Origin: Ulota crispa
Taxonomy: Eukaryota > Streptophyta > Bryopsida > Orthotrichales > Orthotrichaceae
Assembly (NCBI GenBank): GCA_963920765.1
Contig: OY987246.1
Coordinates: 25,243,167 to 25,307,166, forward strand
Reading direction: 5' to 3'
Length of the DNA: 64,000 nt
In this document: in pieces, positions 3,085 through 57,715 of the stretch
How the letters are laid out: each line of letters begins with the position of its first letter
Position numbering within the stretch: the stretch's first letter is position 1
Program-made: the position numbers and the translations under genes
Notes under the pieces: generated by a model
What the model was told of the DNA's origin: nothing
The model's input: the letters and a program-made list of their open reading frames with translations, nothing else
Database searches by the model: none

Positions 3085-3456
3085 AATTATTACAACGATA
3101 TCCTAAATCGTTAACGGAACACCTCATATAAGCATGAAATGTGATTTTTAATGCTGATTTTATATTGAATCAAAAGATTTGTTTCACCTTTATCATTCTA
3201 CGGCTATATTAAAAATAAAAATAAAAATGTTTAAATTTGAAACAAAAAATATAGGACTTTTGAATTACTTAAAGCAACAATACATCAAAAAATAGAATTA
3301 GTACAATAATAATTCAATAAAAATGTGTATTTGTAATGTTTTCTTCCAAGGAAGTGGTAATGCCATGATTGAATGAGTAATGGACTACTTGATCAAATCA
3401 AAAATAGCATCAAATGATCAAATTTCATGTTCATATGGGATGTCTCGCTAGCAATT

Positions 3457-3910: not shown

Positions 3911-5560
3911 AAGCATTTGATGCTATTATATGTCCGCAAAAGCATGTGGCCACTTTACGATGGTGTTTGCTTTTTTAATTTAATCATTTTTATATGTTTA
4001 TCTAGATGTTTGGAAAGGCTCATATAATTTGCTTTTGTTTAAATAAAAAATACTAAGGATTTAGAAGTGAATGAGAAAAGTGTGAAAGGAAAAAGGGTTT
4101 GGCATCTATAGTGGAATTAAAATAAAGAGGAGCATGAGCTGATGTGCCCCACCACCCTACCCTAGATAGGATCAAAATTATGAAGGAAAGATTCTTTAGG
4201 TGTTAGAAGTTAGTGGATGAGTGTTGGTCAGAAGAGGGGAGAAATTTCAAAACTTTGAGGAGAGAGAACTTTTGTGGATACATGATTTTGAATTAAAGCT
4301 TAGAGGAGTTGTTCCTTATATGATTACCTTTCCAAAATGAGTTTGCAAGTTTGATTTGAAATTGTGATGCAAAAGTTATAAGTATTTGAATTTTGAAGTC
4401 AAAAAGCCAAACTATGAAGAAAGGCTGAGACTTCGACAAGCTATAGCTTATGATCTGTATATCATTTTGCAACAAAATTTAAAGAAAGTGTTCATCTTAG
4501 TCTTTGTTTTCTAGAAAGTCCTTAGACTTCAGATTTGAAGTTTGGAAGAAAAAGTTATGGAGGTGTGAAAAATGGAGGTGGCTGCTCTTTTGTTTAGAGA
4601 AGGCCAAAACTTTAGAGAGCTATAACTTTCAAACAATATGAAATTTTCTTCTTTAAATTTTAGAAGTGATAATTTGTTGTTATAACTTTTCAAATTGTCT
4701 TCAATCATTCCATTTGAAATTTTATTGAAGAAGTTATAGTGTGTAGGAGTTAGGGGTTTGGGTGCTTTTTAAAGAAATTGAAACCCACACTTTAATTTAT
4801 TAGAACATTCGAACAAAGTTTTATTTTGAAATGAAAATTTTATAAATTATAGTCAGTAGTATCATCTTTTCAAGTTGATATCACGTTTCTATGGGTGATG
4901 TATATAACAAAAGTTATAGAGATTTATAGAGGCAGTGTTTAGTTTATAAAGAGGAAGAAGAGCCTCTACTTTGAACCAGCATAACTTTTGGACAGTAGCT
5001 TAGATTGAATTGAAATTTGAAAGATGTTAGAAAGTTAGAAGAGCTTTCCAAATTGCTATTACACTTAACATTCAAATCTTTGAGCCATCTATGACGCTAG
5101 ATAAAAGGTCGCAGCTTTTCTAGGACTTGTTATTTGTGATTTTCCTCATTGTTTTTATTAAAACATGAAGACTGAAGATCTAAATAGTGAAGATCAAGAC
5201 TGAAGACAATTTTAGTCAGCAACACACGATCGTAGCGAGACACTCTGCGTGTTCCCAAAGCGCGCTCCTCTCAACCCAACACTGGGATAAATTTTAGATT
5301 TCTACCGTCAAAAAATTAAATTTGAGAATTTTGAATTCAAATTTGAACTTAGAAACTATAATTTAGTGTAGAACCATAAGAAAAATTGCAATTCAACAAC
5401 TCATGCCAAACGTGTACATGTATACTACTATATTTATAAATCTAGAGAATCCATTTCAAAATAAATATTCAAAAAATAATAATTTTTTAAATTTTTTTTT
5501 TGAGCCACTTGACTGCTTGCAAAGCAAAGAAAACTACATATCATGCAATAACATTTGAAC
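3911..5560. other. AT-rich spacer with degraded repeat pieces
   Basis: No gene or intact element was recognised. From about 5288 to 5410 the sequence resembles one arm of the GGGAATTG foldback family (compare 25740-25870, including the stretch about fixing the phrase TTTCTACC and GAATTTTGAATTCA), so it is probably a truncated half element. Phrases resembling 'ATAACTTTT' recur but do not form a clear tandem array. Confidence 0.4.
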
Positions 5561-6662
5561 CATGAAATCAAATGCTATGAAAATTGTTGGGCCTTAACCC
5601 CTCATTGCCTAAAGCCCAAATAGGATTTAGAGCATCGTTGCTTTTCAAAGTGTTGTAAGTTTCAATGCTAGTGGAGTATGAAAATCTCAACCATATAATC
5701 TTGTAGTGTGCATGTTGCAGATGATGTAAATCATATTTGGGGTCATTTGACCACATAGATTGGAAGATTATAATGTTTTAGTGCTAATAAAAGATGCAAT
5801 AATTTTCCTAAAATTACATTTGGAGGTGAAATTTCAATTCTAAACCTACTCAAATTGAAAAAATTCAAAATGTAAAGTGATATACAAACACATTGGTGAA
5901 ACAAAATATCAATCAATATACTCACTTTGTTTGCAAAATTGATTTGAAAAGTAAAAAAAAAGTGAAAAAAATAGTAAAAAATCACATGTATGGCTAAACC
6001 TCCCTCCACTAAAATGCTTCTCATTCACTCATAACTTTCTTGGATTGATATAAAATTTTAACCGCAATAACTAGACTAGTATGCGCAACTATTCCAATAA
6101 CAAGTATTCAAGACAAAGTTTCTATGAAGAAGCTATAAGCCACCAAAATTCAATGTAGTGCAAAAATTTGTGGATTTTGAACTTCAAGTTGCTCTAAAAC
6201 ATTCAAGAAAACTTGTATTGACATGAGACTTTAAGGTGAACAAAACCCAACAAATTTTATTGAGAAAAACATTTGTTGAAAAAGATACAAGCCCCCAAAG
6301 TTACAACCATCACAATGCAATGTTGTAAACTCAAATTGCCCTTGTGAACTTTGAATGGCTTTCACAAATTGAATATGAATTAGACTAAACTCAAAATTCT
6401 ATAAAAGAAAATAGACTAGTATGCGCAACTTTGCCAACAAATTTTACTAAACTTGGACAATAAATGCAAAAGTTATAGCACTTCAAGTTGCAAAAATGGA
6501 TTGCTATAGGACAAAAAGTGTCCCCTTAGGTAATGAGGGGTTAAAGCTACTCCTTGTACACATCATGTATGAAAATTTCAAAGAAAAAAATGAGAAACCC
6601 ATTTGTAATGAACTGCCCAAAATTGCTCTATTGTCAAAAATGTTGCTTAGGGCTTTAGGGGA
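5505..6662. mobile_element. host element interrupted by the 5598-6540 insertion
   Basis: Sequence on both sides of the nested element aligns by eye with the right part of the element at 23523-24400. Shared phrases run from GCAAAGAAAGCAACA-like sequence through TTGTTGGGCC, then AGCTACTCCTTG, GAAAAACCCATTTGTA and CCAAAATTGCT. It ends CTTTAGGGG at about 6661, followed by ATTAA instead of clean TTAA. The left half is missing or diverged; before about 5500 different repeat sequence begins. Confidence 0.55.
5598..6540. mobile_element. TTAA-flanked piggyBac-like miniature element, nested
   Basis: A 943-bp element is flanked on each side by TTAA (5594-5597 and 6541-6544). Its terminal inverted repeats are CCCCTCATTGCCTAAAG at the left and, read inward from the right end, CCCCTCATTACCTAAGG. 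The flanks join to TTGTTGGGCC-TTAA-AGCTACTCC, and exactly this uninterrupted site occurs at about 24276-24295 in a related host element. That pair is direct evidence for insertion into one TTAA and its duplication. TTAA duplication with a CCC-initial terminus is the signature of the piggyBac superfamily. No transposase ORF is present, so the element would be non-autonomous. Confidence 0.8.
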
Positions 6663-12855: not shown

Positions 12856-15800
12856 TCAGGTGGCATAAGAGCTCACGTACAGCTTCACCGCAAGATCCAG
12901 AGGCCGATGATCGGCTCCACCTCCAATAGAATGTAAGGAGACGGGAACTGCCGAAAACAACCGAAGCGTCAGGGGCAAGACAGTGGGTTCAACATCGGCA
13001 TCACTTGCAAGTCCTTCCACATCAAAAGCTGGAGGACTCTCATACGGAAAATCTTTTCCAGCTAGCCTTTGCTCGACTTCTCGGATGATGTCTTCATAGG
13101 TTTCCTTTTCTGGGCTACTAACAAGACCATCAGCAGGGTTGACAACCATTGCTATATCAGCAACTGTTCTTTGCAGTCTTCCAAACCTGCCTGGTAAACG
13201 TTTCTGCGGAACACTTTTCTTTGCTGGAGAGATATCAAGGACTAGTGTTCCGGTTGCTTCAAACCACTCCGCATTGACACCCTCGATCTCATCATAGTAT
13301 ATGCGACGTTCCATCTGAATGATCCAAAGACTCGTCAGAAATAAAGATTTTAAGCATCGATAATTACTTCAGCCTAAAAACAATGCAACCCATACCCAAT
13401 ATAACCTCAAATCATCCAAATACAAATCTCAATAACAGGAAAGTTAGACTCTACTGGTTCAAAGATCTACATATCACAATAATCTCACTTTAAGCTGAAC
13501 GTTAGATCCTAAAGGGAATATATCAATGATGAAAAATCAACGAATTAACCGACATACCGCTATCTTACAGATGTATAATGTCATAAACTTTGGTCCCAAG
13601 GCAAGAACTCTTGAATCTGACAATAAGCCCTGCTAAAAATATCCAAAACAACAGTTAGTGCTGCACACTGCTATGGTGTCGATCCAAACAAATGCAGCAT
13701 TCCATTCTAAGAAAACAACAAGAAAAACAATTATTGAGCTTACCATAACTAATGGACAAACGTAACTAATATCACCCATATATTAGAAGATAATGCACTT
13801 ACCCCTTTCTTCTTCAGCATAACCCACAGATAGAGCTTATCACTCGCTTCCTTCACATTTCGGCTGGCCATCTTTCTTTCATTACAGTGGGCAGCGATAC
13901 CAACGAGATCAGAACTGACGGGCAGTTTATGCTTGCCGGCAGCTATTGCAAGCGCATTCTGCGCAATTGGAGAATCTGACGCGAATCTCTCTGACTTTGC
14001 ACTAGAAAAGTACTGCTTTAACCTTGAATTCCTCGCCATAAGAGGAACTACATTGTTCTTGTTTCCTTTGCGAGATAAAGAAATATCAGATGAACTGAGA
14101 ATGTCTTCAGCGTCAAGAGCCGCAGCTAGCATGCGATGAACTAAAACATCAGGGTACCTTCGGATAGGGGAGGTGAAATGAGTATAAAGTGGACACGCAA
14201 GTGCATAATGCCCCCAGTCTTCTTCCTTATCTCTCAATTCTCCGGTACAAAAGTACTTTGCCAGCTGCATCGGCTTTGTCGCGAACACCATAAGAATATT
14301 GTACAGTACTGGGTCATGACTAACGCGGTCTTGCATCTTCTCCAGTGAGAGGCGCAATCCACCTGAAGAGGATATATCCAAGTCGAACTCGTTCTTCTCA
14401 CAGAATTCCTCGAACTCCCGAAGCTTTCGCAAATTCGGTTCAGGGTGGCGCCTTAGCAAGGCACTATCTGGAAAAGCATTTGAAATAACTTTGGCAACCG
14501 TCATATTGGCCAAAAGCATGAACTCCTCAACAACAAAATTTGAATCTTTCGTTTTGTACAATGAGGTTTCATATGGTGTACCATCGTCATCCAAGGAGAA
14601 CACAATTTTCGAATTGTTGAGTTTCAGAGCACCCCCCTCAACTCGACTGTCCCTCCGTTTCTTAGCCATTTCGTGAAGTCCCAGCACATCGGTAACTACC
14701 TCTGACCAGGTATGGTTTCCATGAATCTGTGGTAATGGCTTGCCCGATTTTGAAAGGCCATCCCGAACTTCAGCGCCTTCCATATCCACGAAAACACCTT
14801 CGATCATATCTTGTGCATGCTCATAGGTGAGTTTGGCACATGAGTTAATGACCGTTCGCCCAATCCACTGGTCAAGAATCTCGCCTGATGCATTCAAATC
14901 CCAAACAACAGAGAAAGCAAGACGATCTACTCCGGGGTTGAGGGAACAAAGCTCTTCACAAAGAAGACGCGGAAGCATGGGCAAGACCCGCTGCTCAAGA
15001 TAGATGCTGGTGGATCTATGAGCCGCCTCTTTGTCTAATTCAGAGCCAGCAGAAATAAAATATGACACATCTGCGATATGCACACCAACCCTCGCTACCC
15101 CATTGCGAAGTTTCTCGATAGAAAGTGCATCGTCCAAATCCCGAGCAGTTGGAGGGTCGATTGAGAAAATTCGACAACGCCGTAGGTCGACCCGCTTTTT
15201 CATCTCTGCGACTGGTATCTTCCATGGAGTTTCCGGAAGACAGTCCAATGACGCTTGAGGAAAATCTGGAGGATGGGCACTGTTTTCAAATAAAATCGCC
15301 TTCAGCTGAGGTTCAATTTCTCCTCCTTGACCTAAGCTCTTGACCACAGTGGCTGAGGGGAGGTAGCTGTCCACCCGCCATGAAACAACTCTTGCAGCGA
15401 CAAGTTCTGTAGAAACTGTTGAATCCCCTTCCTTCAGGCGCTGATACAAGTCGGCCGACAGACAATTTGGGGGGACTAGCATTTTCGGACAACGACTATC
15501 AACGGGCACCAGCAGCATCGTCACCACATTCTTACGCTTGTGAGGAGAGCCATCTCGTAACCCTCTACCCCCTGATCTACCTCCACCCCGCTGCTGTTGA
15601 GGCAACTCAAGAAACCCTACAACAGACTCCCGCCGAGCAGATTTTTGAACAATAGCCATTACTTTAGCAGTCGGCCTCTTCCCTGGACAAGATGATATCA
15701 GAGATGTGAGTCTGGCTACAGCAGCCGCAATTTTCCCACTAGGATCTCCGCAGCTCAATTTACTACATGCGTTCGTCAATCTCTCCACCGAGCTATTCAA

Positions 15801-18800
15801 GGCTGTCACTGTTGATGCGTCACCAGTTACTTTGCTCGATGTGAGAACCTCCACTGAATTTTGCAACGTAACAGGACCTGTCGAATTCTCGCTTGAAGGT
15901 CGTTTCAGAATTTGGTACACGGTATTCCTGGCCACAGTAGTCTTCTGGTCAACAGAACGACCATTATCGTATGACCCGCTATTTGATTTATGAGAGTCTT
16001 CTTGGGTGGCCGAGACTTTCCTATTACAGTCCTTCGACATGAAGTTGGAATGCTGAGTTTCTGAAGTTCTTCCTTCCCTGCGAAACAGATCTTTTACATC
16101 CTCCGACAAGTTCTCTGTGTGCTCAGTTTCAACTCTCCACGCAGAAACCGCCTCGATGTGTTTATCTCTTTCTGATACAGAGAAATCTCCATCGCAAACG
16201 ATTGCAGGCTCAAGACTCGCTTGTTTAATGAAAGAACCCTTTAATCTCGGCCAAGCAGATGTTGGTTCAATCCTGACTGCTACGATATCCCCTTCCATCT
16301 AGAAATAAACATATCAGCAAAAAAACGTCAATAACAGATTGCAAGTTTTAACAGCATAACGCATTACAAGTCATAATCAGAAGCATGTATCAACAAAATA
16401 TTTCAAACCGAGTTCGCAAGAAACTAGTACAGAGGTGCATTAGTACGTACCGCTCGATTTTGCGCTGGTAAACCATCAATTAGTAGATCTAGGGGAAGAC
16501 CGTCTACTGTCACATAAGCCTGCAGATAGAGTTTAACAAAAAACTTTGACATATAACCTAAAGTAAAGACCTAATAATTCATCTTCAATGGCAAGCACAC
16601 TCAGTTCAAGATATTTTTCAACAGGCTTCGACAACTACAAAAATAGATCACAAAAACAAAATGCAAAAAACTTGCAGTTCCAACGAGAAACAACGTGATT
16701 TACCTCATGACGGTTGTGAGAATTGACTCGTAAGGTAGCTTTAAAACTCTGACCATCCTGTACAAGAAGACACTACATCGTAAAACAGCAACACAAAACA
16801 ACGACAGCACCGCAGATTTACAAATTTCGGTAAACAGAAAATAAAAAATAACCATCTCAAGAATAACTAAAGCTATTCCAGACATTGCAGCAGCTCACGC
16901 AGGAGCTAATTCAAGCTTACACAAAGAACAAACCTCTATCGCCTGATTGACTTCTTCAAGTGGCCAATGCTCTGTGAACAATTTCGATTGGACAGAACTT
17001 CGGGTAGTTCCCACCGCTGGCTGTGCTATAGAGAGAAGCTCCATAAACGATACCCCAGAAGATTCATTTGGAGGGCCGAGCAAGCTTGAGCCTTGCCCAG
17101 GCCACGAATGGGAGCACTCAGAGAGTCCCTCCCCCGTAGAGCTTATTGAGGTTGGATTATGTGCTGTGTCTTTACTCATTCCTGACGATAGAGCCTTCCA
17201 CTGCGTCTGCGAATCCTGAGATTGAGTCTTCCGGTTAGGCGATCTGGAAGGTGGAACCGGCAAAGATCTCTTTGTCCCTTTCTCCACAGCAGGTTGTTTT
17301 GTACCCATGCCGTGCACACCACCTTTCCTCGACTCTGTAATATCGTTTTGAACTTTCGGTGACTTTGTGAATGACACCTTCGACTTTGAGATTCCTATAG
17401 AATGACTCCCATTTCTGCTTTTGGACTCGGCACTGGACACCATAACCTCCTGCACAAGTCCATTACTGTGTCTGATTTCACTATTTAACGTCTCCGACTT
17501 AAGGTTTTCAAACCTGCTTCCATCCTGCCATGCACCGGTGCTACTTGCGTCGCTTCTTTCTTCTTGCTGTGTTGCCATGCGGAAGTTGAAATCCTCCGAA
17601 TAGGTGTCCTCAAACCTTGTAATCAGGTCTGACGAGCTGGTCGCTGGCGGAGTTGAGACCTCGCCTTCTGAGCTGTCGTTCCCGGCAGTATCCTCCTTGG
17701 GATACGCTTCGGAAGCGCTTGAGCTTTCCAGGCTAACTACTTCAAGGGCGGGACTAGAGACTGACGTCGACGACGCCAAAAGAGAAAAATCTTCTACATA
17801 TGTCACATTAGAATTGTTGGGAAACTCACTTCTTGAAGAAGGAGAGGAAGAAAGAACATGCTGTACAGAAGTCCCATCAGGTCTTGTACAAGGGTCTCCA
17901 GCTGCAGCAGCTGGTTTCGCACTAAATGCATCAAAAGAAAGCTTAGTTTTGAAGGAAGGATTAGGGATAGAACTAGGACTGGGGCTTGACAACAAGGATG
18001 CATAATTGTTAGTCCCACGCAGTGGAGCCTCCTTACGTATCTGCTCCGCTTGTATTTTACAACCTCCGTCCTTCAAATCTATGACAACAAACGCACATTC
18101 ATTACAACAACTTTCAGAAAATAATCAAGCAGATGTAGAATCCCACATGACTTCGTGAATAACTGAAAGCGCAGACTGAACCTCGCCAGAGGAGAAAACG
18201 AAAGAACCGAGACACATTTAACAGCTACAAGCCTGATATCGAGACTTCATAATCCGAAACAATAGCTTCCAAGTGTCAAGGGTAGATGCACTTTAAACAG
18301 CATACGAACTGAAAGAAGAAGAGGAAACCCTAGAGTGTACGGCATTGAACCGACCGTCCTATAGCCGTATTGAAATATAAGATACTGGAATTCAAGAGGC
18401 CACATAATAATTCGTGTGATAAGGATCAGGCGACCTAAATCGCAGAGGAGTGCAAAAGAACATACCATTTTGAGAGGAAGAAGAAAAATCATTCTCGGGC
18501 GAAAAACCACCATAACTATCCGGTCGTCTCGTTTTCCTACCCGGCCTTTTGCGGCCACTTCCAGTTATGTCTCGACCAGGCTCTAACACACCAACGATAG
18601 GCAGGACGGGCGACAGCGAGTGCGCAGGCAACACACCCGGGTTCTGCGGCGATGCCGGGGCGGCGTTGCCATAAGCCTTGACAACAACCCGCTCCTCACG
18701 ATGACGCTCAGACTCCAGCATGCGGAAACCCGGCTCCGACATGGAGCGTTGCACAGAAGGGGCGAAGGGCGATGCCGCCGACGAGGAGCATCGCACCTTA

Positions 18801-23043: not shown

Positions 23044-23522
23044 GAGAGCACACTACCTTAATATCAACACAGCCTTGAATGACTTGAATGGTTCATTCAG
23101 ATTTCTCTGTTTGGTGGGGCTACCAATCCAATTGACTTTCTTGCATATATTTCAAAAATTGGCTTCTTGCTTATTGTTTTGTTTGTCTCTTCGTATGTTT
23201 ACAACCATGGCACTTTTGTAAGTAACTATTACATTCCCTCTTTTTAAGAGGACTGACGACAATTTAAAAATTACAAAAAAAGGACCTTCAAATTTTCAAA
23301 CAATAGTAGCTCTACTTACTAAGTCTAACTTTTTATCAAACTCAATAGAAGAGTTTCTACATCCATTCTACGTGCATTCTACGTGGATTTACTAGAAATT
23401 TTGAACTTATTGATCCTGTCATTTTTAGTATGAAACTTGGTTTTATGCTAGGTAGCTTTCTGTATTGGCCTAAAGATTGATTGTAACAAACAAGCATTTA
23501 ATAAAAATTTCAAACCTTTTAA

Positions 23523-24400
23523 CCCCTGAAGGCCCAAGCAGCCTTTTTCGGTTTTCTAGTGATTTTGGGGAGGTCACTACAAATGGGTTTTGTATTTATT
23601 TGCTTTTTGATTTTCATGCATGAAGTATTCAAGGAGAAGCTTTAAGGCTCAACAATTTTCATGACTTTTGACTTCATGATTCAAAAATTAGTGCATGATC
23701 TGTTGTTTTCTTTGCTTGTAAGGGCAGCTCACAAACATCTTTAAATTTTATATTTCAAGTTTGGTTTTTTTTTTAATTGGTTCTTTAGATCTATATATAT
23801 GTGGGAAGCTTTGAATCATTCAATTTCCATTTAAGAGATGAGAGTTATGAGAAGTTTTAGTTTCCAAGTAGGTTTGGTTTTGAGAGACTCACTAGTAGAA
23901 AAACAGGTCCTAAACAACTAGGTCACAATAACTAAACCACAACTGCACTAACTATACAACAACTACAAAATGACTTGTGCAATTGTGGTTTAGTTATTGT
24001 GACCTAGTCGTTTAGGAGCTCATTTCTAATAGTGACTCTACACCTACCCGGAAACTAAAACTTCTCATAACTTTCATCTCTTTAATAGAAATTGAATGAT
24101 TAAAAGCTTCCCACCTAGATATAGATCTAAAGAACTAATTTTAAAAAAAGAAAATTTGAAATGTAATTTTTAAAGAAATTTTTGAGGTGCCCAGGCTGCC
24201 TTAACAAGCAAAGAAAGCAACAAATCATTCAATAACTTTTAAACAATGAAGTCAAAAATTATGAATATTGTTGGGCCTTAAAGCTACTCCTTGGGTACTT
24301 CATGTGTGAAAATGAAAATAATTAAAAATGAAAAACCCATTTGTAGTGATGTGCCCAAAATTGCTAGAATGCCAAAAAACATTGCTTGACCCTTGAGGGG
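23523..24400. mobile_element. TTAA-flanked foldback element, 878 bp
   Basis: TTAA lies on each side (23519-23522, 24401-24404). The termini are CCCCTGAAGGCCCAAGC and, inward from the right, CCCCTCAAGGGTCAAGC. The two halves are inverted copies of each other over most of their length (for example the AGATCTATATATATGTGGG arm near 23790 and CACCTAGATATAGATCT near 24113). It also provides the unoccupied TTAA site (about 24283-24286) matching the insertion at 5598-6540. A CACTA element is nested in its loop. Confidence 0.75.
23890..24034. mobile_element. CACTA-type miniature element, 145 bp, nested
   Basis: Begins CACTAGTAGAAA and ends TTTCTAATAGTG, the CACTA-type inverted terminus. It is flanked by the 3-bp direct repeat ACT (23887-23889 and 24035-24037), the length expected for CACTA elements. 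The interior is itself palindromic (GGTCACAATAACTAAACCACA and its complement). It sits in the middle of the 23523-24400 foldback. Confidence 0.8.
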
Positions 24401-24438
24401 TTAAGGCTGGTTATAAAAGATCTCCAATAACACTCTAA

Positions 24439-29451: not shown

Positions 29452-30870
29452 TGAGAGCATTGACTGCCTCAATCAATGGCTGTCTTTTGGATGGAGAGCC
29501 CAAGCCCTGAGCCACTCAGAAGTCAGAACTCAGGGCATCCTCAATCCGGCTGCGTTAACCCCTAACGGACCAAGCCAAGTTTTCACCAAAAACTCTCCAA
29601 AACTGCCATTTTTAGAGCACCAATCAAATTTGAAAATAAAAACAATTTTATGCATATGTGACCATAGGATCTTGTAAAAGAATGGTTATAGAAAATATGG
29701 AAAAGATTTCAGAGTTTTTTACCACGTGGATTGGAAGTTGGAATGGTTTGAATATTCAAAAACATCTTGTGAAAACTGGGCGGCTACCCTTCAGAAGGTG
29801 AAATTCCTAAGGAAAAAAGGTCATGTGGGTGGTACTTCTCCAAATTCCTTATTCCACCTCAGTAAAATAAATGTGAAAAAAGTTTCAAATCATTTGGAGT
29901 TGTATAACATATGGAAAAAAATTAGTAAGTAAAAAGAAGTAGAGAATGATTCAAAACACTAAATTGTTAAGAATATAATTATGGAAATGAAAAATGCCAA
30001 TCCCAACGGTTGAAATGTTGTCATAACAATCTTCATCCTTTGGTTTTGTTCTTTTTCCAAAATGTTGAAAATTGAGTAAAATAAAGGACTTCAAAGTTTA
30101 TTTTGGAGTAGAGGATTCATAACTGCCCGCAAACAAAAAAATCCTCATAACTTTCATCTTGTTGATCCAAACAGAATGATTCAAAGCTTCCTACATTCAC
30201 ATGAATCTCCTAAACTAATTAAAAATTTTGATTTTGAAAAAAGTGATTTTAAAATTTGCCTAGGCTACCCGATGAACGTAAAAAACAACATATTAGACCA
30301 TAACTTTTTACTCATACTTCCAAATGTCATGAAATTTAGTGCATATGAAAGATAAACCTCATCCCCACATTTTATTAAAATTTCACCCTAAAATATGAAA
30401 AGCTCCAATCACATGAACATGCCCAAAATTACTATGTTTCTAAAAAAGGGGGTCTGGTCCTTTAGGGGTTAACACCCCTCCATTGGTATTGTAACGGTGA
30501 AGAATTGCAAACCTGCTCCAATGCATCCGGCAAGTGGCATGCGATTTTGGAGGGGACAGCAAAACTTAGTCCATGCCGGTTACATTCAACATTTTTGGAG
30601 AGGCCTTCAAACTCATCTCTATACTATTGTCAAAGCAATGATGACTACTTTACAAGCCGGAAATAGATTTGCAAGCCGGAAATAGAGATTGTGTCAGAAA
30701 TACCTGACAAAAGTATGATAGAAACGATGTTTAGAGTCTTGCTACTTGTGTGTGCGTTGGATTGGAGGAGCCGATATGCCGCCCGCTTCAGACAAGGCCA
30801 CGCAAGGAAGGTCGCTAATCGTTGTTAAGCGAGCCCGATGCTGGCTCTGGATTGACGATGCCCTTAGAAC
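29452..30870. mobile_element. possible GAGCATC element interrupted by a TTAA element
   Basis: GAGAGCATTGACTGCCTC at the left (about 29452) and GACGATGCCCTTAG at the right (about 30857-30870) could be paired termini of this class, with the 29559-30468 element inserted between them. The match is weak and the boundary is an inference. Confidence 0.3.
29559..30468. mobile_element. TTAA-flanked element, 0.9-kb family, 910 bp
   Basis: TTAA on both sides (29555-29558, 30469-30472). Left end CCCCTAACGGACCAAGCC; right end, read inward, CCCCTAAAGGACCAGACC. The interior is near-identical over long stretches to the 54998-56691 copy (after removal of its insert) and related to 52477-53398. Open frames at 29726-29932 and in the 54998 copy share a short peptide-like stretch (NWAATLQKVKFL) but are truncated differently, so I do not call a gene. 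Confidence 0.8.
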
Positions 30871-32942
30871 TCAAAAGAGGGCTCCTTCTAATGACCTTCA
30901 CACAACTCTCACGCATTTAAGACCTAGGAAAGAGGTGGATGTTGCTGTTGGCGTTGTTCTCATCCATTTCCATCCATTTCCATCCATTTCCATCTATGTT
31001 CCTAAAGCCACTCAAGAAAAAAAATTCAATATAGAAAGTACTTCCTAATAGATTACTTTAACTCCTAAATGCCCAAGGGTGTTTTTTTTGTTTTTGGAAG
31101 GCTACTTTGAAGTTTTTGAATTGTCCTTGTAGACCATTATTAAACATTAAAACAAAATTCTAACTGTAGGATCTTGAACTTCAAGGCCTTTAATGGTGCT
31201 ATCAAAAAAAATTCCAAAAAGACCATGTGGATTTTAAGATGTTTGTGACTAAATTTGGATGAATATGGAAATTTTGGTTTTCTTTTAGTTGCCCAAACTT
31301 CCAATGAAATAATGGCAACTTTTGTGTACAAACATGGGAAACAACCACTTACAATGATTTAGTGTTTGTTGTTGTTACTTCAAAACTAATGACCCCCTGT
31401 CCAAATACATGATCACAATTTCACAAATGAGCATGCAATGCAATTGTCAAAGAGCTACCACCTAATACAAAGAAAGTTTTTAGCTCCAATTATTAACCAA
31501 AAATCATGATGAATGGAATAGAATTCAATGGTGAATGAATTCTAGTTTGTATAACAAAAAATTCCATGTGAAATTAATCCATAAATAGAAATGGATTTTA
31601 CTAGATGATGGAATTTTAGTAAAATGGCCCTCATTGCCCAAGGGAGTGCCCAAGGGAAATCTTCACTTTATCCTCAACTTGATGCCCATCTTTTCAATGT
31701 AGCAACTTGTCATAGGCTCCATGACGCCATTCATGATAATATTCATGACACTATTCCTAACACAAAAGATATACTTGCAGTTAAGCTTCCTCTAAACACA
31801 ATTAGGATAAGATGTACAAGAAACTAAAATCAAATGCTAGAGCTAACTTCAACTAGCAACTTTCCCTATAATAAAAACCTTAAAACAATAAAATATGTGC
31901 CTTCAACAGGGTTTCAAAATTTCTTGAATTTTTGTGAACACCCCAATTGACTGCCTTGTGCATTTATGGGTTAAAATGGAGTCACCTTTTGGTTCAATCC
32001 ATAATTTGTCACAAACTGAGCTATTAGATTTGAAGAAATACACTTAAAGAAACTCTTTCAAGAACTTCATTTTGCATTCAAGGCTCTTGGTAAGAGTATT
32101 GATATTCATTATAAAAAGGACGGTTAAACATTTGTAAATGTATGTTAATCATTGTGAGTTGAAAAACCAATAACAATGTTTGCTTATTCTATCTGGACCC
32201 CATGACTTGCTTGAGCAAGCCATATTAACTTTTAAGTAGATCTTTGGAAAGCCTATACTTTCGTGCATATAAGGGATTAACATATTGAAAAGCATACCTT
32301 TCAAGCAAAATATAAGCAATTGAATTCATGGTTTTTCCTCTTAACCTCTAAAGGATGTTGATGTATTGTATACGCTCTTTTGTGTTGTATATGGATGGAA
32401 TATTTGGGTAGCACATAAATTTCAGTAGAGTTGTAAATTTTAAACCAAGTCACAAATATATCATTGGTGAATTAAGATTTTTTGGGGAATTTTGGTATTT
32501 GTCATATAGCCATTTCTTCAAATATTAAATGGTCCTTGTATGAATATAGACAACATATTTTAGGGGTTAAACTTATTAATGTACTAACCATATATTAGCA
32601 TTGAATGAAGGACATTTCAAAAACATTTTGAACAAATTTGTATCTATTATTTGGACAACATTTTGATTTATTTGCAAAATTGAAAAAAACAAGAATGATG
32701 TTTATGTCATGTTATCAAAATTGCAAAATGTTGGTTAGCAAACTAATTAGAGGAAATCTAGATTCATCAAGTAGTAAATGGAGAATGAATCATTACCAAC
32801 AAAGTTTTATTAGTGGATTCCAAAAGATTAAACCTTCGATTATTGAGAAATCCATAATACAGTATATAGTATATACAATACTCTAAATATCTGCTAACTT
32901 TTGTTAAACTTTTATTGATTTTTTTTCAAATAAATGTTTGAC
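30870..32942. other. AT-rich spacer with isolated TTAA-element ends
   Basis: A three-fold CATCCATTTC repeat lies at 30960-30992. A left-type end TTAA-CTCCTAAATGCCCAAG occurs at 31058 and a right-type end TTTTAGGGG-TTAA at about 32558-32570. They could bound one element of about 1.5 kb, but the interior matches no other family, so the pairing is uncertain. No gene was recognised. Confidence 0.35.
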
Positions 32943-32946
32943 TTAA

Positions 32947-33561
32947 CCCCTAAATGCCCGAGCTACCAGCTTTGGGTGTTTACAAAACTTCAAAGATGAA
33001 TAAAATTTTATCAAATCACTATTTTTAGTTTTTTTGAAGTCTATTTTCAACATCAAAAATCTAATTTTGAAAATGAAAGTTGATAATTTTTCTATTCAAG
33101 ACAAGGGTGTCCACTGCATTCTTGAGTTTTTTATTGTTGGAAGATCTTGAGAATGAGCCGCGAGTACATTAGAGCTTGGAGACAAATCCACATTAAAAAT
33201 CCATTTAAAAAGAATTAGAAGTAGGTGTTGAAAGTAGTAAGTTGATTACAATTAGACATGTAATGATCTTAAACCTTGTATTTTTTTGGCAACCTACTTT
33301 TTAGATTTGACAGGTGAAATGAAGATTGGAAAACTTCAAGTCACTTTTGCAGTTTTGACACCCTCAAGTTCAAACATTATAATCTTTCAAACTATATGTG
33401 ATATTATTGTGTTTTCTTTTTCCATGTAATATCTAACAAGTTTAGTTTGAGTTTATATGGTTACAATTGAAAAAAATTGATCAAATTTGTGAAAAATTTA
33501 GTTGATTTTGTGGTTTCATGAAAATTCCAAGAAGCTTAGAAAGGCCTTGGGCATTTAGGGG
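32947..33561. mobile_element. TTAA-flanked element, 0.65-kb family, 615 bp
   Basis: TTAA on both sides (32943-32946, 33562-33565). The left end CCCCTAAATGCCCGAGC and the right end GGGCATTTAGGGG form an inverted repeat. The interior is related to 24439-25083 and 34006-34651 (CTATTCAAGACAAGGGTGTCC and GAATGAGCC landmarks). Non-coding. Confidence 0.75.
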
Positions 33562-34005
33562 TTAACTGATGAACAACACTACCAAGATCTGTATTGTATT
33601 GAGTTTCATAGATACAAAATATCAAGAATTATAGACAAACCTTCAAAATGAAGCATAGAGAACTTATGGAGGTATAACTCAAGACCAAAATCAGGTAAAT
33701 CTAAATGAATGGTAAGGCAGTTTGCTTGTAACCCGACCATGTAAGGGAAAAATGACGTCTGTATTAGATTAGCAATCTGGAAATATTTTTGCTGGAAATT
33801 CAAAGAAGAAATACTTCTATGGCCATTTAGATTGAAATTTTTTGAAATGGTATGAATTAATAATAATTTATCAAAGCAAAAGGTGCATAGATATCTATTC
33901 TTGATCATAGGTGGTAGCATTCAAAATGCAAAAGCAACTTGTAAATGGAGCACAGTCCTAAAAGCAATCACTACAAAGCCAAGAATGCTCCAATAAGGCT
34001 CTTAA

Positions 34006-34651
34006 CCCCTAAAGGACCCTAAGGACAAAATGTGTCCTTGACCAATTTTTGAAGTTAAATAAAAACTTACAAAATTATTATTTTTAGCAATATACATTTT
34101 TGAAAAGTTCTTTTTGAAGTTTAGTTTTAGTTTCAACAATTCAATTTTGCATATGATTGATTATGATTTTTCTATTCAAGATTTTGTGCACGAGTGTTCA
34201 TTGCAATCTTGACTTTATGTAGTGTTGAGGGCCCTTGGGAATAACTCTCAAATACACTAGATCTTTGAGAAAATATCACATTCAAAATTCATTTAAAAAA
34301 ACATAGAGTAGGTTTTAAGAAGTCATGAATTGATTGGGGCTATGCTTGTTAAGCACTTTAACCTCATTTTTGTTTTGGAGACCAACTTTTTAAATTTGAC
34401 ATGTGAAAAGAAGTTGGAAAGACTTCAAATCACTTTTAGAGTTTTAACACCCTCATGATCAAACATTATAATCTTTCAATCCATAAGAGATATTGTTGTG
34501 TTTTCTTTTCTAATGTGGTCTCTAACATGTCTAGTTTGATTTCATACGATTGTAAGTCAAAAAGAACTGATACAACTTATCAAAATGTTGGATTTTGTTC
34601 AAATTAAAGCAAATTCCTAGAAGCTTGGGAAATTCCAAGGTCCTTTAGGGG
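34006..34651. mobile_element. TTAA-flanked element, 0.65-kb family, 646 bp
   Basis: TTAA on both sides (34002-34005, 34652-34655). Termini CCCCTAAAGGACCCTAAGG and CCAAGGTCCTTTAGGGG. The length is within one base of the 24439-25083 copy, and the two interiors are very similar, which suggests movement from a common non-autonomous source. Confidence 0.8.
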
Positions 34652-34655
34652 TTAA

Positions 34656-36380: not shown

Positions 36381-37482
36381 CGAACATTTGAGATTTAATC
36401 GGGATTTTAAGTGCGGTTTTTCGTACGGATGGCTCGGGGGCTCAAATACGAAGGAGAGCTATCGCTTAACTTTTGGGGATGCTCGGGTTTGCTAACGTGT
36501 GGGTGCTGCAACGGCGACTGCGTTAAGCGTGCGTTGTCGCTGTGTATACAAAGGGCACAGCACTGGGGGTTGTCCGAACATTCAGAAATCAGTGAGCTCT
36601 TCAGGTATGAACTGTCTCTCACTTCTCAACCTTGTTTTCTCAGGTGTTTCCTGATGCTATGAGCTTTTAGATCAAAGCAGTTCCATGCGGTCAAAGGCCA
36701 GCATTATGGTCAGAGTTTGATGAACTTGAAGAGTAGTAGATCAGTGACGCAAAAAAATTTACTGATGCGATTGCTTTGGCTATGATCGAGTAGGATCAAA
36801 AAGGCAGGCAAGAATGGAGAACAACTTAAATTCCAGTTCTACAACTCCTCGATTCGCCCCTCTGCCCTACCGTTGCATCCTACTGGGATGACAATAACTG
36901 GTAAGTGCATTTCTCTAGCATTGTTACATTCGTCATGAATTTCAGGATTCCATGAGATGGTTGCTCACTACAAACTCATACAGACATTCACCGGCTTTCC
37001 TTCAAACCCATGAGAGGGTTGAAATGTACGTAGCTATAACTTGCTATCACAGTCGTTCCTTCCTTCATGGAAACTACAATGACATGCACATGGGGGCTTC
37101 CGTAAGGAGTGTGTTTCAATTCTTGACTTGAAACGCCGTTGAGGGACAACTGCTACTATCCCATTCGGATGTCCCTTCTTCCAAGTATATAACTTGCAAG
37201 ACAGAAACACACACTTTGATGCTTACATGAGAACCTTTGCTTAACAAAACTCATTGTTGAAGTCAGGTTTAGGAACTCATAGATTGCAGAAGCTCATCCT
37301 CCTAGAACCCTTTGTTACGCTTCTCATGTACTTTGAAGTAGATATGCTGCTTGATCAGGGTAGAGAGTTGGCCGCCAGCTTGACGAGTTCAGTCCTTTGT
37401 TGGAGAACTCACATCTCATTGCATTGCAGGTGCCTGAACTCTTCCACTTGGTGGCTTTGGGTTTAGTCGCCCTCCATCACAC

Positions 37483-38808
37483 ATGAGGGGCCCTTGCAGC
37501 AGTGTTAGTCCCGCATTGGTGGGACCTCAACAATCAGAAATGGCTCCTTCTACCACCAACCCAAGAACTGCAAGTATGGCGCCAGGCAGTACCGTCCGAC
37601 CTTCGTACCAGCCGCCCACTAGCAGCCTCAGATCCCCAACTGCACCTCGCATAGCTCCATGCAGCACCACACCCCTTGTGGACGTGCCGGCCTCCACAAG
37701 CCCTACACTTGCAAGTACAGCATCCCCACAAACTCTAAGCAATAGCAGCAAGCGAGCACGGAAGGATCGCGGCCCCAACTGGGTACAAATGGAGATACTT
37801 GCGCTGATTTTTGCGAAGCGAGACATTTTCATAGAGGAGTTGGATGCGGTAGACAGGCGGGACTTGATGGCTTCAGACCAGACAAAGTGGACTCGCGTAT
37901 CAGAGGAGGTCCAACAAGCGAATTGCTCACCTGTCCTACGCGACGGCCAGGCCTGCAAAGCAAAGTGGAACTCCATTATACCGGAGTACAAGAAAATATC
38001 TGACTACCTCAGTCAAACGGGGAGGAATGCCATCAATTATTGGACATTGTCTTCCAGCGAGCGTAAGGACGAAGGCCTCTCCAAACAGTTCTCTTGAGAC
38101 ATATTCTGCGCCATTGACGAATGGTTTGGACTGAGGCTGCAGATCCGCCCACTGCACGTACGAGACCTGCTTTCACCAAACGACGCAAACTTTGGAGCAC
38201 ATGCAGCAGTGGGAGAACGTGGAGAGGATGATACAAGGTACCAGGGATTTGATGACCCCATTGACCTTGCAGAGGTCGAGGTCGATGCTGATGCAGGGTC
38301 CCAACAGAGCTCGCCATCCCGATCTCCCCAGAGCTCAGCCTCGCTGCCCCGTGATTTCTTTGCAAGGACACCGCTAGGCAAGTCACGTTCTGTCCTTCCG
38401 CCTGGAGTTCCACCGCAAGTCCTTAGTTCCTCTGGAACTTCATCGTATTCACTTCGAAGGCAGTTGGGGAATACCAGGATAAAATGGAAGAATGTCTCGG
38501 GACATAGCTTGATGGCTGAGGCAACACAGTCGACTGGAGAGCTCTTGGCCAGACAATTGCAAGAAACAGCAGCTGCACAGAGGGAGATGGAGCGCACAAA
38601 GATTGATGCTCAATTCAAAATATTTGTTGAGAACATGACTTTTCAATGTGAAAGGGACCAGCGAATTCAAGCACAATCGAGGGAAGCCAATGCCCTGGCT
38701 AAATTGGCAATCGACAATCAAGCTTCTATTGTAGGATGCCTCTCCAAACTCTCAACGGTTTTGAACAACTGCTTGGGGAAGAGGGGCATCCTCAAAAGGC
38801 AGCAGTAG
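37483..38808 (+). pseudogene. Harbinger Myb/SANT-like ORF with an in-frame stop
   Basis: The reading frame runs 442 codons with one internal TGA at 38095-38097 (codon 205). Downstream sequence stays open in the same frame and resumes with DIFCAIDEWFG, as expected for this family. A Pro/Ser/Thr-rich N-terminus is followed by a trihelix/Myb-like domain starting about Trp100 (GPNWVQMEILALIFAKRD, then KAKWNSIIPEYKKISDY) and a C-terminal charged helix/coiled-coil region (ARQLQETAAAQREMERTKID). In this superfamily the protein binds element ends and partners with the transposase. The stop could derive from CGA by a C-to-T change at a CpG. No intron was needed. Confidence 0.75.
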
Positions 38809-42512: not shown

Positions 42513-42966
42513 GAGCATCTCCTACCATCCATCAAATGAAGCCCATGGAAACTAGGTTTGGAGGGGACAGGAACATTAAGTAGCACAATAGGGCATGAAG
42601 TTCCCCTGCACCCTAGAAAGTTTTAGGACTTGCACTTGCAATACAATGAATTGCATTGGTACATCTGACGTTGAAGCATAAACAATGCTTGGCAGGGACT
42701 GTGAAGAGGTTGGAGAACCTCAAATTTGACGTGAAAGTGGCTAAACCTGAACGACCCCGCCCTTGCACATCAACAAGTACAGTGCTATTGGAGACTCAAA
42801 TTGCCGTTACAGGTGGAATGGAAAGGGCTCATTTGGTTGCCGTTACAGGTGAAACGCAAAGGGCTCATTTGGTTGCCGTTACAGGTGAAACGCAAAGGGC
42901 TCATTTGGTTGCCGTTACAGGTGAAACGCAAAGGGCTCATTTGGCGGGTGGCAAGAGATGCTCTAA
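42511..42966. mobile_element. GAGCATC-terminated miniature element, copy 4
   Basis: Left end TAGAGCATCTCCTACC, right end GGCAAGAGATGCTCTAA. It abuts copy 3 and carries the 36-bp tandem array at 42803-42946 near its right end. No coding capacity beyond the repeat-driven frames. Confidence 0.55.
42803..42946. repeat. four tandem copies of a 36-bp unit
   Basis: The unit begins GCCGTTACAGGTGAAACGCA and ends GGGCTCATTTGGTT. Copies 2 and 3 are identical, copy 4 differs only in its last bases, and copy 1 has a few substitutions. The unit length is a multiple of three, so the frames at 42656-43019 show a 12-residue repeat by default; I do not regard these as genes. Confidence 0.95.
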
Positions 42967-44858: not shown

Positions 44859-45641
44859 TCATCCTTTCTTCACAGGCCGTTGCACGTAAGACTTGTTAGG
44901 ATCCTCTGTTTTGAGCTTCGGGGGACGCAGTTCACCCCTCTTGGCTTTCTTGCCGCCTTTCTGGAAATCCCGCCAACTCGAAACCCTATTCTCTCGGGTT
45001 TCTTCCCACTTCTCCTCGTGCTCGCGCTTGTGTTTCCACATCTCCCGAGTCTCCTCTTCCTCTTTCTTCACGCGCCCTTCTTCTTCGGAGATGCGCATGG
45101 TCAGCTTTCTGCGTCTCCACTCCTGCTCTGTCAACATCTCCCTCACGCGCATCTTCCACGCCTGCCGGAAATCGTCCGACTGCTCGAACTGGTTCTCGAA
45201 TTTCCCCTCGTCGACCATCGACTTGATTTTGGAGGCATTGTCACGTTTCAACTTCTTCCTCCTCTCGGACCGCAATTCATCCCTAGCCGCGTTAATTTGC
45301 GAAACTATGTAATCCCGCTCGGACGGGTCGAGCAGCAATTGCTGCGCCTTGGCGAGGGCGGCAAAGGCTTCATTGGCGCGAGGATGTTTGCACTTGTCAG
45401 GATGGATGAGCAGTGACAATTTACGATATTGCCTTCGAACTTCGTCGAGGTCCGAGTCGAAGGGCAGATTTAGATGCTCAAAGGGATTAAGCTTGAAACA
45501 GCCTAAGACACGCAGAACCTCATTGTCGCGCACCACGTCACTGACTTCCGCAAAGAACTCCTTCAGGAGAGCGTCCTCGGAGGCGGCAACATCCACCATG
45601 GCTGCTGCTGCTGCTGCCAGAAGACTACGGGAGGGAGGCAA
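44859..45641 (-). CDS. J-domain protein of the DNAJC8/SPF31 type
   Basis: A complete, uninterrupted 260-residue protein. The J domain spans about 52-115 (NPFEHLNLP, then QYRKLSLLIHPDKCKHPRAN) with the HPD motif at 80-82 that stimulates Hsp70 ATPase. A long, highly charged helical region follows (about 120-220, with KKLKRDNASK and TEQEWRRRKLTMRISEEEGR), ending in the family-typical WRDFQKGGKKAKRGELRPPK and EDPNKSYVQRPVKKG. Animal DNAJC8 is nuclear and associated with the spliceosome; the same role is inferred here. The first Met is used, but Met15 (45599) removes only an Ala-rich stretch and is an equally likely start. No intron interrupts the coding sequence. Confidence 0.93.
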   Translation of the reverse strand: MPPSRSLLAAAAAAMVDVAASEDALLKEFFAEVSDVVRDNEVLRVLGCFKLNPFEHLNLPFDSDLDEVRRQYRKLSLLIHPDKCKHPRANEAFAALAKAQQLLLDPSERDYIVSQINAARDELRSERRKKLKRDNASKIKSMVDEGKFENQFEQSDDFRQAWKMRVREMLTEQEWRRRKLTMRISEEEGRVKKEEEETREMWKHKREHEEKWEETRENRVSSWRDFQKGGKKAKRGELRPPKLKTEDPNKSYVQRPVKKG

Positions 45642-46140
45642 GGTGAGGAGGGAGGGGATGGGAGGGCTGGATGGAGGCTAGAGAGAGAGAGAGGACTACA
45701 AGGAACACGAGACGGAGGACGAAAAGGCGAACATCGCGGGGACAGAGGGAGGACGCGACCACGGAGATGGTCGAGGAGCAACCCTAAATGAGACAAGACA
45801 GACACACAGACAGACACACAGACACACAGACACACAGACAGGGGGAGAAGGGGGGAGAAGGGGGGGGGGAGGCCGAAGGAAGGGCAGGGGCGACGATGGA
45901 GGCCCAAGGAGACACCTCGCAAACAGACACCCCCCACCCCTGCCCTGCCCTGCCCTGCCGCTGGCAGCCGCGGCGACGACAGTCTCACGCCACAGGCTCC
46001 ACCGTCCACGCCCGCCTGCACCGTGCCGACTGCAGTCTGGAGCCGCACTCATGACAATCGTCCACGGCACCAACAGCAACCCCTCCCAATTAGCTCCCGC
46101 TCTCACCCTTCACCCCTGCGCGCCCTGGTCGTTTTCATCA
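45642..46140 (-). promoter_or_regulatory. 5' leader and promoter region of the DNAJC8 gene
   Basis: GC-rich sequence upstream of the start. It has a pyrimidine patch on the transcript strand (GA repeats on the plus strand at 45680-45694), CAGACACA-type repeats at 45797-45840, and a run of G tracts at 45841-45870. Composition drops abruptly to AT-rich at about 46140, marking the island edge. No TATA box was seen. Frames across this region (45563-46106) are compositional. Confidence 0.5.
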
Positions 46141-49544: not shown

Positions 49545-49812
49545 CACTAAAAGAAACTCGTGTTTTTTATAACTGATTTTTTGAACATTCATTTGTTTTT
49601 ATGTTACAATTGATGTTAGTTCTAACATCAGGATATTAGTTCTAACAGGATGTTAGTTCTAACAGTATGTTAGTTCTAACATCAGGATGTTAGTTCTAAC
49701 ATCAGGATGTTAGTTCTAACATCAGGATGTTAGTTCTAACATCAATTGTCACATAAAAAACAAGTGAACGTTCAAAAAAAATTGTTATAAAAAACATGAG
49801 TTTCTTCTAGTG
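49545..49812. mobile_element. CACTA-type miniature element, 268 bp, intact ends
   Basis: Begins CACTAAAAGAAACTCGTG and ends CATGAGTTTCTTCTAGTG, an 18-bp inverted repeat with few mismatches. It is flanked by AAA on both sides (49542-49544, 49813-49815), the 3-bp duplication expected for CACTA elements. Subterminal arms (TTTTTTATAAC, GAACATTCA) also pair. The centre is a tandem array of a 20-bp unit. Confidence 0.85.
49611..49745. repeat. tandem 20-bp units, each palindromic
   Basis: Six to seven copies of GGATGTTAGTTCTAACATCA, some shortened. Within each unit GATGTTAG and CTAACATC are inverted copies, so every unit is a small hairpin. Repeated subterminal motifs are where CACTA transposases are known to bind, which could be the role here. 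Confidence 0.9.
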
Positions 49813-52472: not shown

Positions 52473-52476
52473 TTAA

Positions 52477-53398
52477 CCCCTAAAGGACTGAGCCTTTTTT
52501 TTCAGTGAAAATCACTCAAAATTGCCACTTTTGGGGTTAGTAAGAAGGTAATTTTTTTTGAAAATTTGAGAAATCCAACCGTAAGATCTTGTCCTATACT
52601 AGATTAGATACTTGTGGAAATAAAATCAGGTCATTCCGGATGGACATGAGTGAGATATTTACATCTAAAGTGAAAAGAAAAGTTTTTTTTTGCCGCAAAA
52701 TTTCAGAAGCCTTTGACCATTCTTACATGAAAATAATTGCTCTATGCAACTTCGCGCTTTATTTTTCCCATGTAGGAGATCAAGTTAGCTATGTGTGGAA
52801 GAATTTTCAAATGAATTGGAACTGCACAACACATAAGAAAAATCAGTAAGTAAAAAGAAGTAGAGAATGAGTCAAATCACTAAATTGTTAAGAATTTAAT
52901 TATCAAAATGAAAAATGCAAATCCTAGCGGTCATAATGTTGTGATAAACAATCTACATCCTTTGGTTTTGTTTTTTTTCCAAAATAATAAAAATTGAGTA
53001 AAATGAAGGACTTCAAAGTTTATTTTAGAGTAGAGATTCCATAACTGCCCACAAACAAAAACTCCTCATAACTTTCATGTCATTGATTGAAATTGAATGA
53101 TTCAAAGCTTCTCACATATAAAAAAATCTAAAGAACCAAATCCAAATTTTAATTTTAGTTTTTTTAAATTTAAAGAAGTTTTTGGGCTGTCCAAGGGGGC
53201 AATCCTCCCTTGCTTTTCAGATTTTCATGCATAACTTTTTCAATAATTGACGGAATGAGGAAAAAATTAAATGCCTGCACAAATCTTTGAATTCCCCACC
53301 TTCCATAAAAGTTTCAAAAAATCACACAAAGTAGTTTATCCAAAGGTACATGCCCAAACTCCCACCTGTCCCTCGAAGGGACAACGGTCCTTTAGGGG
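52477..53398. mobile_element. TTAA-flanked element, 0.9-kb family, 922 bp
   Basis: TTAA on both sides (52473-52476, 53399-53402). Termini CCCCTAAAGGACTGAGCC and ACGGTCCTTTAGGGG. The middle matches 29559-30468 and 54998-56691, and includes TTGTTAAGAATTTAATTATC, an uninterrupted version of the site occupied at 55414. Confidence 0.8.
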
Positions 53399-53402
53399 TT
53401 AA

Positions 53403-56695: not shown

Positions 56696-57342
56696 CCCCT
56701 CACTGCTTAGGGGGACCAAAATTGTCCCTTGCTTGTTTGTAATTTGGGGTCTATAAATTTCCTTTAGTATTAATAACAAATGATTTTATTTATTTATAGT
56801 TCTTGTTGAGGTCTTGTTTTAGTATCAAAAGTCTGATTTTGAAAATGATCAAATATGATTTGTCTACTCAAGATTTTGTGAAAGGGTGTCCATTGCAAAT
56901 CTTCACTTTCTACTGTTGAGGGCTCTTGAATCTGAGCCTCAAGTACACTAGAACTTGGAGAAAATATTACATTAGAAATTGAATTAAGAAAATTGTACAA
57001 TAGATTTTGAGAAGCTATAAATTGATTGGGGTTATGCATATTAAACTTTACATACTCATATTTTTCAGGTACCCTCAATTTTAGATTTGAGATGTGAAAA
57101 GAGGATTGAAAGACTTCAAATCAATTTCACAATTTTAACATCCTCATGATCAAATCTTTTAATCTTTTAATCCATAAGTGATGTTGTTGTGTTTTCTTTT
57201 CCCATGTAATCTCTAACATGTCTAGCTTGAATTTATATGGTTACATTTTTAAAAAACTGACAAAATATATCAAAATATTGACATTTTGTTCACTTCAGAG
57301 CAGATTCTAAGATGCTCAAGATCTACCTTGGGCGGTGAGGGG
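56696..57342. mobile_element. TTAA-type element, 0.65-kb family, 647 bp
   Basis: The left flank TTAG is shared with the preceding element; the right flank TTAA (57343-57346) is shared with the next. Ends CCCCTCACTGCTTAGGG and TTGGGCGGTGAGGGG. The interior follows 47247-47886 and, more distantly, 24439-25083 and 34006-34651. Confidence 0.75.
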
Positions 57343-57346
57343 TTAA

Positions 57347-57715
57347 CCCTTAAACGCCGAGGAGGACAAAAAACACCCTTCAACTCTAAAAATGATCTGT
57401 GTGACAAAAAAAAGCCATTTTTCATTTGTTTTTTTTGCAAAAGTGATCATAAACACATGATCCATCTTGGAAGGAAAGAATTTACCTCATTAGATGCACT
57501 CATATTTTTAGATAACTCAAGTTGTGAGAAGATTCAACGACACGGTGTTAGGTCTCAAGCTACCCTTCTTGCAATTTTCAAGAAAGCACCATGCATTGTT
57601 GACTTTTGCAGCTTTTAGTAACAATATTACTGTTGAATATAGTTAGATTCATTGTAGAAAACACTATACAAGCCACAAGAAGGTAGGCCATGATTATCCG
57701 CTTGGTGCTTAAGGG
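57347..57715. mobile_element. TTAA-flanked element, 0.35-kb family, 369 bp
   Basis: TTAA on both sides (57343-57346, 57716-57719). Left end CCCTTAAACGCCGAGG; right end, read inward, CCCTTAAGCACCAAGC. Related to 41787-42128. The plus frame 57286-57618 crosses the boundary from the neighbouring element and is not a gene. Confidence 0.75.

Follow-up and report, generated by a model that had tools for sequence, protein, structure and literature searches.

We identified, in a moss genome, a 943-bp element that almost certainly belongs to the piggyBac superfamily as a non-autonomous member (MITE). It lies in the window, the whole stretch of 64,000 nucleotides analyzed here. TTAA stands on both sides of the element, its copies have diverse flanks, unfilled sites carry a single TTAA, and the same genome carries decayed piggyBac transposase genes inside elements with like ends, one of which (T49) matches the MITE consensus over 36 bp. 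The element is an old MITE of a known superfamily; what is unexpected is its host and the number of related ends.

The window element and its unfilled relatives

The element and its two TTAAs span positions 5594-6544. Its ends, CCCCTCATTGCCTAA...TTAGGTAATGAGGGG, form an inverted repeat of 15 bp in which one position is mismatched, and the flanks are TTGTTGGGCC and AGCTACTCC. The terminal motif is CCCCT, one C beyond CCCT, and both motif and repeat length agree with the description of piggyBac MITEs in an excerpt of PMC2872659 (TIR of 12-19 bp with a CC[C/T]T terminal motif). An ORF scan returned no frames of at least 120 aa overlapping the element.

A relative of the flanking sequence elsewhere in the window, GTTGGGCC-TTAA-AGCTACTCC, has a single TTAA at 24278-24281 and no insert. 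The insert and one TTAA were deleted in silico and the joined flanks were then aligned to the window. They matched 24206-24404 (201 columns, 80.1% identity, E 1.6e-43) and, in reverse orientation, 23717-23519 (200 columns, 79.0%, E 2.3e-41); the junction was ungapped in both alignments. The initial annotation had placed a 943-bp element with ends beginning CCC between two TTAAs, and an unfilled site at about 24276-24295. Coordinates and flanks are as it described, the element begins CCCC and finishes GGGG, and the unfilled site is where it was expected.

The related host element at 23519-24404 is itself of the form TTAA-CCCC...GGGG-TTAA, so that one TTAA element has inserted within another. 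It represents a foldback family whose arms measure ~360 nt and whose ends read TTAA-CCCC. This host family is an extensive one, with 4,691 first-look candidates genome-wide, 40 of them scored. Other features of the window include gene pieces resembling an RNB/Dis3-like exonuclease (13749-16298), a DnaJ protein (44859-45677) and a Myb/SANT-like protein (37438-38097), and short tandem arrays at 42765-42944 and 49609-49742, with 36-bp and 17-20-bp units.

Table 1. Features of the window related to the MITE, its host element and similar TTAA-bounded ends.
Feature	Position	Strand	Remark
Host element, portion left of insert	5522..5593	.	Matches 24206-24281
Left TTAA target-site duplication	5594..5597	.	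Exact TTAA
Left terminal inverted repeat CCCCTCATTGCCTAA	5598..5612	+	First twelve columns 54-100% conserved in 37 aligned copies
943-bp non-coding MITE, almost certainly piggyBac-type	5598..6540	+	
Right terminal 36 bp including TTAA	6509..6544	-	Family-consensus counterpart matches T49 left end (86%)
Right terminal inverted repeat, inward CCCCTCATTACCTAA	6526..6540	-	
Right TTAA target-site duplication	6541..6544	.	Exact TTAA
Host element, portion right of insert, ending GGGGATTAA	6545..6666	.	
Related host element TTAA-CCCC...GGGG-TTAA with long inverted arms	23519..24404	.	Arm pair 23519-23728 / 24195-24404
Second unfilled target TTAA, left arm of related host element, reverse orientation	23642..23645	.	
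Unfilled target TTAA, right arm of related host element	24278..24281	.	
Candidate pair TTAA-CCCC...GGGG-TTAA, 918 bp	29555..30472	.	End similarity only
Candidate pair TTAA-CTCC...GGGTTAA, 917 bp	31058..31974	.	End similarity only
Candidate pair TTAA-CCCC...GGGG-TTAA, 623 bp	32943..33565	.	End similarity only
Candidate pair TTAA-CCCC...GGGG-TTAA, 654 bp	34002..34655	.	End similarity only
Candidate pair TTAA-CCCC...GGGG-TTAA, 930 bp	52473..53402	.	End similarity only
Two back-to-back TTAA-CCC ends	57339..57350	.	Common TTAA at 57343-57346

Copies of the family across the genome

The genome searched comprises 274.8 Mb in 157 contigs, ten of which are 15.8-41.4 Mb in length. With the 951-bp element and its TTAAs as query, at least 41 match rows were obtained (40 of 335 first-look candidates scored). 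Forty copies were taken with 600-bp flanks and 78 ends were examined, two ends being absent from the copies. Exact TTAA occurs at 70 of the 78, and the flanks are diverse. The other eight ends read TCAA, TTCA, TTAC, CTAA, CCTA, CTGA, TCGT and GATG, several of them extrapolated from alignments that end a few bases early. Full-length alignment was possible for 37 copies, the remaining three (truncated or split) being left out. The consensus is 980 bp long, and each of the 37 copies is 88.7-93.2% identical to it; the copies are old. Conservation in this alignment is 0.89-1.00 in the TTAA columns and at most 0.57 in the flank columns directly outside.

In 5 of 11 comparisons that span a junction, the unfilled partner has TTAA: the two window sites, L019 against L013, L046 against L013, and L023 against L032. 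The last is excluded from support, as the TTAA there belongs to the end of L032's own element rather than to an empty site. In the remaining six, the partner has changed letters at the site (TTAT, TCGT, TTGT, ATAA, ATGA). Given these altered partners and the uncounted L032, the window pair is the cleanest evidence, and the others match in position but are noisier. The collection of copies and the alignment of filled with unfilled sites, both proposed in the initial annotation, thus bear out its claim of insertion into TTAA with duplication, the evidence coming from the copies and from both unfilled sites in the window.

piggyBac transposases in the same genome

The TTAA letters of the insertion also fit duplication of an inner TA, so it is the link to a transposase that decides the superfamily. 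A profile search with DDE_Tnp_1_7 (PF13843), suggested at the outset together with a check for matching ends, was positive. It gave at least 120 match rows, all above cut-off (528 candidates, 116 scored), with a best E of 1.3e-73; they are spread across contigs C1-C11, a few genes being split over two rows. None of 14 control genomes had DDE_Tnp_1_7 matches. Nearly all rows contain stops; ten of the 120 listed are free of them.

Seven of 14 inspected transposase loci, from five lineages, sit between TTAA-CCC-type inverted ends. This is a selected count, because T49, T58 and T54 were extended for a visible right end and L067 was found via T49. Among the four loci chosen without prior hint of ends (U50, U53, U55 and U57), three have a TTAA-CCC pair. 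T49 (C3; 5,027 bp) and T58 (C10) align over 5,029 columns at 90.5% identity, and their homology runs out no more than one base from the TTAA at either end, which in T58 reads TTCA on the left. L067, on C8, is a third copy of this element, with TTAA at both ends. The remaining elements are T54 (C2; 5,102 bp, TTAA-CCCTTGACCGCCC / TTAA-CCCTTCACCGCCT), U50 (6,010 bp, TTAACTCCTAAGCGCCC / TTAACCCCTAAGCACCC), U53 (5,586 bp, TTAACCCTTTAGGGACC / TTAACCCTTTAATGACC) and U57 (6,343 bp, TTAACCCTTCAACGCCCC / TAAACCCCTCAACGCCCC). Both CCCCT and CCCTT occur among the ends of the transposase elements.

No TTAA-CCC pair was found in the longer flanks of U55, in the inspected flanks of L062, L063 and L064 (picked for open frames), or within the 1.5-kb flanks of L051, L052 and L056. 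In a shuffle control for end pairs, U53 was equaled once in 150, and the best pair of U55, not of TTAA-CCC type, beat all 150; the pair score alone is therefore not specific. The piggyBac frame of U55 (C4:7897811-7906423) lies between TTACTCCCTCTGTCC / TTACTCCCTATGTCC ends, which to our eyes resemble Stowaway/mariner TIRs. This arrangement may reflect nesting or chance.

The transposase frame of T54 (P0001; 361 aa) scores 218 bits against PF13843 and matches piggyBat (PDB 9c0f, E 2.4e-25) and piggyBac (PDB 6x67, E 6.4e-24). Its TCDE, VDN and GVDLVDQ motifs, which we take to hold the catalytic aspartates, align with both structures, so the DDD motif is present. Intact catalytic motifs were not found in several other copies. 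Identity to P0001 among the remaining transposase frames examined is 31-62%, so several piggyBac lineages coexist.

Three further observations concern these loci. L063 (C1:1178709-1183495) has stop-free DDE_Tnp_1_7 stretches of 164 and 309 aa separated by an intron-like gap of 270 nt; two aspartate motifs were seen, and the inspected flanks lack a TTAA-CCC pair. Judged from sequence, this is possibly a domesticated piggyBac-derived gene. The motif VNCLQE...QIAKLLGW is common to frames that precede the transposase in T54 (L060:1739-2599) and T49; a Pfam search with the T54 frame gave no match, and the frame may encode a putative second protein or an N-terminal domain. Pairs of transposase matches on opposite strands with equal or nearly equal scores (C2:36765124 / 36779670, C10:676128 / 785346, C7:18203169 / 18223004) suggest inverted duplications.

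Shared ends and the likely source of mobility

The right end of the MITE consensus matches the left end of T49 over 36 bp including TTAA (86%; BLAST E 2.6e-6); the local score is 39, whereas the highest among 200 shuffles was 18. The genome thus holds, in T49/T58/L067 (~5.0 kb), a relative that combines a DDE_Tnp_1_7 transposase with matching ends. The match of T58 to the MITE right end is weaker (24 against 19 in shuffles), and for T54 one of four comparisons exceeds the shuffles (23 against 22). The MITE left end matches both T49 ends over 12-17 bp only (16-21 with TTAA), so a simple deletion from T49 does not account for the MITE, whose body has no match to T49. The exact helper of the family was not found among the DDE_Tnp_1_7 loci inspected; the actual helper may belong to a related lineage.

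We infer that a DDD-type piggyBac transposase encoded elsewhere in the genome (DDE_Tnp_1_7) would have bound the CCCC... ends, excised the MITE and joined it to a TTAA, leaving TTAA on each side. The helper would come from the T49 lineage or from one closely related to it, movement was presumably cut-and-paste, and transposition has probably largely ceased. A variant of this explanation, in which the MITE was cross-mobilized by a piggyBac lineage other than T49, is a live possibility, though one we rate as somewhat doubtful. It would suit the coexistence of lineages with frames 31-62% identical to P0001, the similar ends of U57 and U50 and the lack of a T49 match in the MITE body, but it is T49 that the 36-bp terminal match points to.

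Readings outside the piggyBac superfamily fare far worse. Sola3 is another superfamily that duplicates TTAA. Membership of Kolobok (or Sola3), with another class of transposase, is very improbable. Kolobok does duplicate TTAA according to an excerpt of PMC9587614, which corrects the initial annotation's statement that only piggyBac-type transposases are well known for it; the same text gives its termini as 5'-RR/YY-3', whereas the window element has CCCC...GGGG. The transposases found inside elements with ends of this kind are of the DDE_Tnp_1_7 class, the class for which we searched.

Still less probable is a Tc1/mariner-type duplication of TA, with A as the terminal base of the element and T-TA-A always as the target. 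TA lies within TTAA, and T-TA-[ACCCC...GGGGT]-TA-A and TTAA-[CCCC...GGGG]-TTAA read identically, but an enzyme duplicating TA is not expected to require TTAA at 70 of 78 ends, and elements with such ends contain a piggyBac transposase. A Harbinger-type duplication of TTA or TAA was rejected, as it would leave unequal ends (ACCCC with GGGG, or CCCC with GGGGT).

Contamination of the assembly by animal or fungal DNA is the least credible reading: piggyBac is chiefly known from animals, fungi and protists (PMC12732532, in excerpt), but the transposase match rows (at least 120) extend across C1-C11, related ends number 27,337 genome-wide and the insertion lies within a host repeat whose family is also present in this genome. 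The piggyBac lineages may have an old horizontal origin.

Abundance, stacking and flank preference of the ends

Counting both strands, the window has 23 copies of TTAACCCC, whereas 30 Markov shuffles average 1.9; for TTAACCCCTAAA the count is 11, compared with 0 after shuffling. The exact pattern TTAACCCCTMAHBG has 27,337 occurrences genome-wide (28 for the reversed-pattern control), and TTAACCCCTCATYGCCNAAGGGGAC has 692 matches with at most two mismatches (control 0). The back-to-back junction AGGGGTTAACCCCT, in which two ends adjoin one TTAA, is found at 876 exact sites genome-wide (control 0). Insertions of the window family adjoin another such end at 14 of 38 sites, whereas 54 of 704 remaining TTAAs, drawn from the window and from the flanks of the copies, have one next to them (binomial p 4e-7, Fisher 1.3e-6). 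Tandem slippage was considered as the origin of the back-to-back elements and rejected, because abutting neighbors carry other ends (CCCCTAAAGG, CCCTTGAGC, CCTCTAAACG and others).

The 60 flanks without a neighboring end have 57, 63 and 55% GC at positions 1-3, against 31, 35 and 32% at other TTAA sites. In total, 105 of 180 flanking letters in the window family are G/C (binomial p 2e-12, positions taken as independent). Genome-wide, G/C stands beside TTAA at 12,419 of the 27,337 ends (45%), against 31-33% at local TTAA sites, and three G/C do so at 3,252 ends (11.9%), against 112/1,408 (8.0%). The GC-flank bias is thus strong in the window family and weaker genome-wide. A preference for G/C-rich flanks alone may steer insertions to TTAA-CCCC ends.

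The moss host and broader significance

The DNA-binding exon of LEAFY on C4 is identical at 104 of 106 residues to PDB 4bhk (FLORICAULA/LEAFY homolog 1), with 244.7 bits against 169.1 for Arabidopsis LEAFY (2vy1), and the neighboring exon agrees. We take the source of 4bhk to be Physcomitrella. On the strength of these exons, the genome is taken as that of a moss, which narrows its earlier description as plant-like. Apart from this clear LEAFY gene, SAM_LFY gives five weaker matches of 29-43 bits, on C1, C3, C10, C5 and C2.

A broader reading is that mosses harbor an ancient, diversified and native piggyBac radiation, in which MITEs make up a large share of the genome and are prone to stacking, insertions favoring GC-flanked TTAAs, including those of resident ends, so that a TTAA comes to be shared. 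We offer this tentatively, as plausible but a little short of probable. If it holds, mosses would be land plants with piggyBac as a leading class of DNA transposon, and a source of plant-derived piggyBac enzymes.

In excerpts of the literature, piggyBac is widespread in animals, fungi and protists and occasional in plants, as in red algae (PMC12732532), and is negligible in two plant repeat tables, with 1,230 elements (0.00%) in Ceratopteris and one of 75 bp in Stipa (PMC6890710, PMC8319324). These excerpts agree with the view of the initial annotation that such elements are rare or little described in land plants, but that view is qualified by another, in which PiggyBac is one of seven superfamilies into which angiosperm MITEs are sorted by their ends and TSD (PMC10004981). 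In the portion available of a Physcomitrella paper the insect piggyBac figures as an untested tool (PMC5505980), and in that of a Niphotrichum moss paper the sole related word is 'piggybacking'. We found no report of a native moss piggyBac in the open-access literature searched. A moss with 27,337 exact ends of TTAA-CCCCT type and at least 120 match rows for the transposase would alter the picture of piggyBac as occasional in plants, and suggests that such elements are misclassified by plant repeat pipelines that have no piggyBac class. It also puts plant-resident piggyBac lineages on offer for seamless-excision tools.

Comparison with known systems

The elements described here have in common with piggyBac of Trichoplusia ni and piggyBat of Myotis the TTAA duplication, CC[C/T]-type ends, the DDE_Tnp_1_7 domain and aligned DDD motifs; within the superfamily, the moss host sets them apart. 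The 5' motifs given for piggyBac in an excerpt of PMC10813416 are CCCTC, CCCTT, CCCAT and CACTA, and the ~2.5 kb given there for known piggyBac compares with 5.0-6.3 kb for the transposase elements here. Unlike known piggyBac, T54 has a frame without a Pfam match upstream of its transposase. Kolobok is alike in duplicating TTAA and unlike in its 5'-RR ends and transposase class (PMC9587614, in excerpt). The MITE also resembles the piggyBac-derived MITEs of corals (CMITEs), which in the excerpt of PMC2872659 are TTAA-flanked, have CC[C/T]T ends, occur as alleles with and without the insert and are linked to a piggyBac-like transposon. They are ~100 bp long, compared with 943-980 bp here, and their tandem arrays are ascribed in that text to replication slippage, whereas the abutting neighbors in this moss carry other ends.
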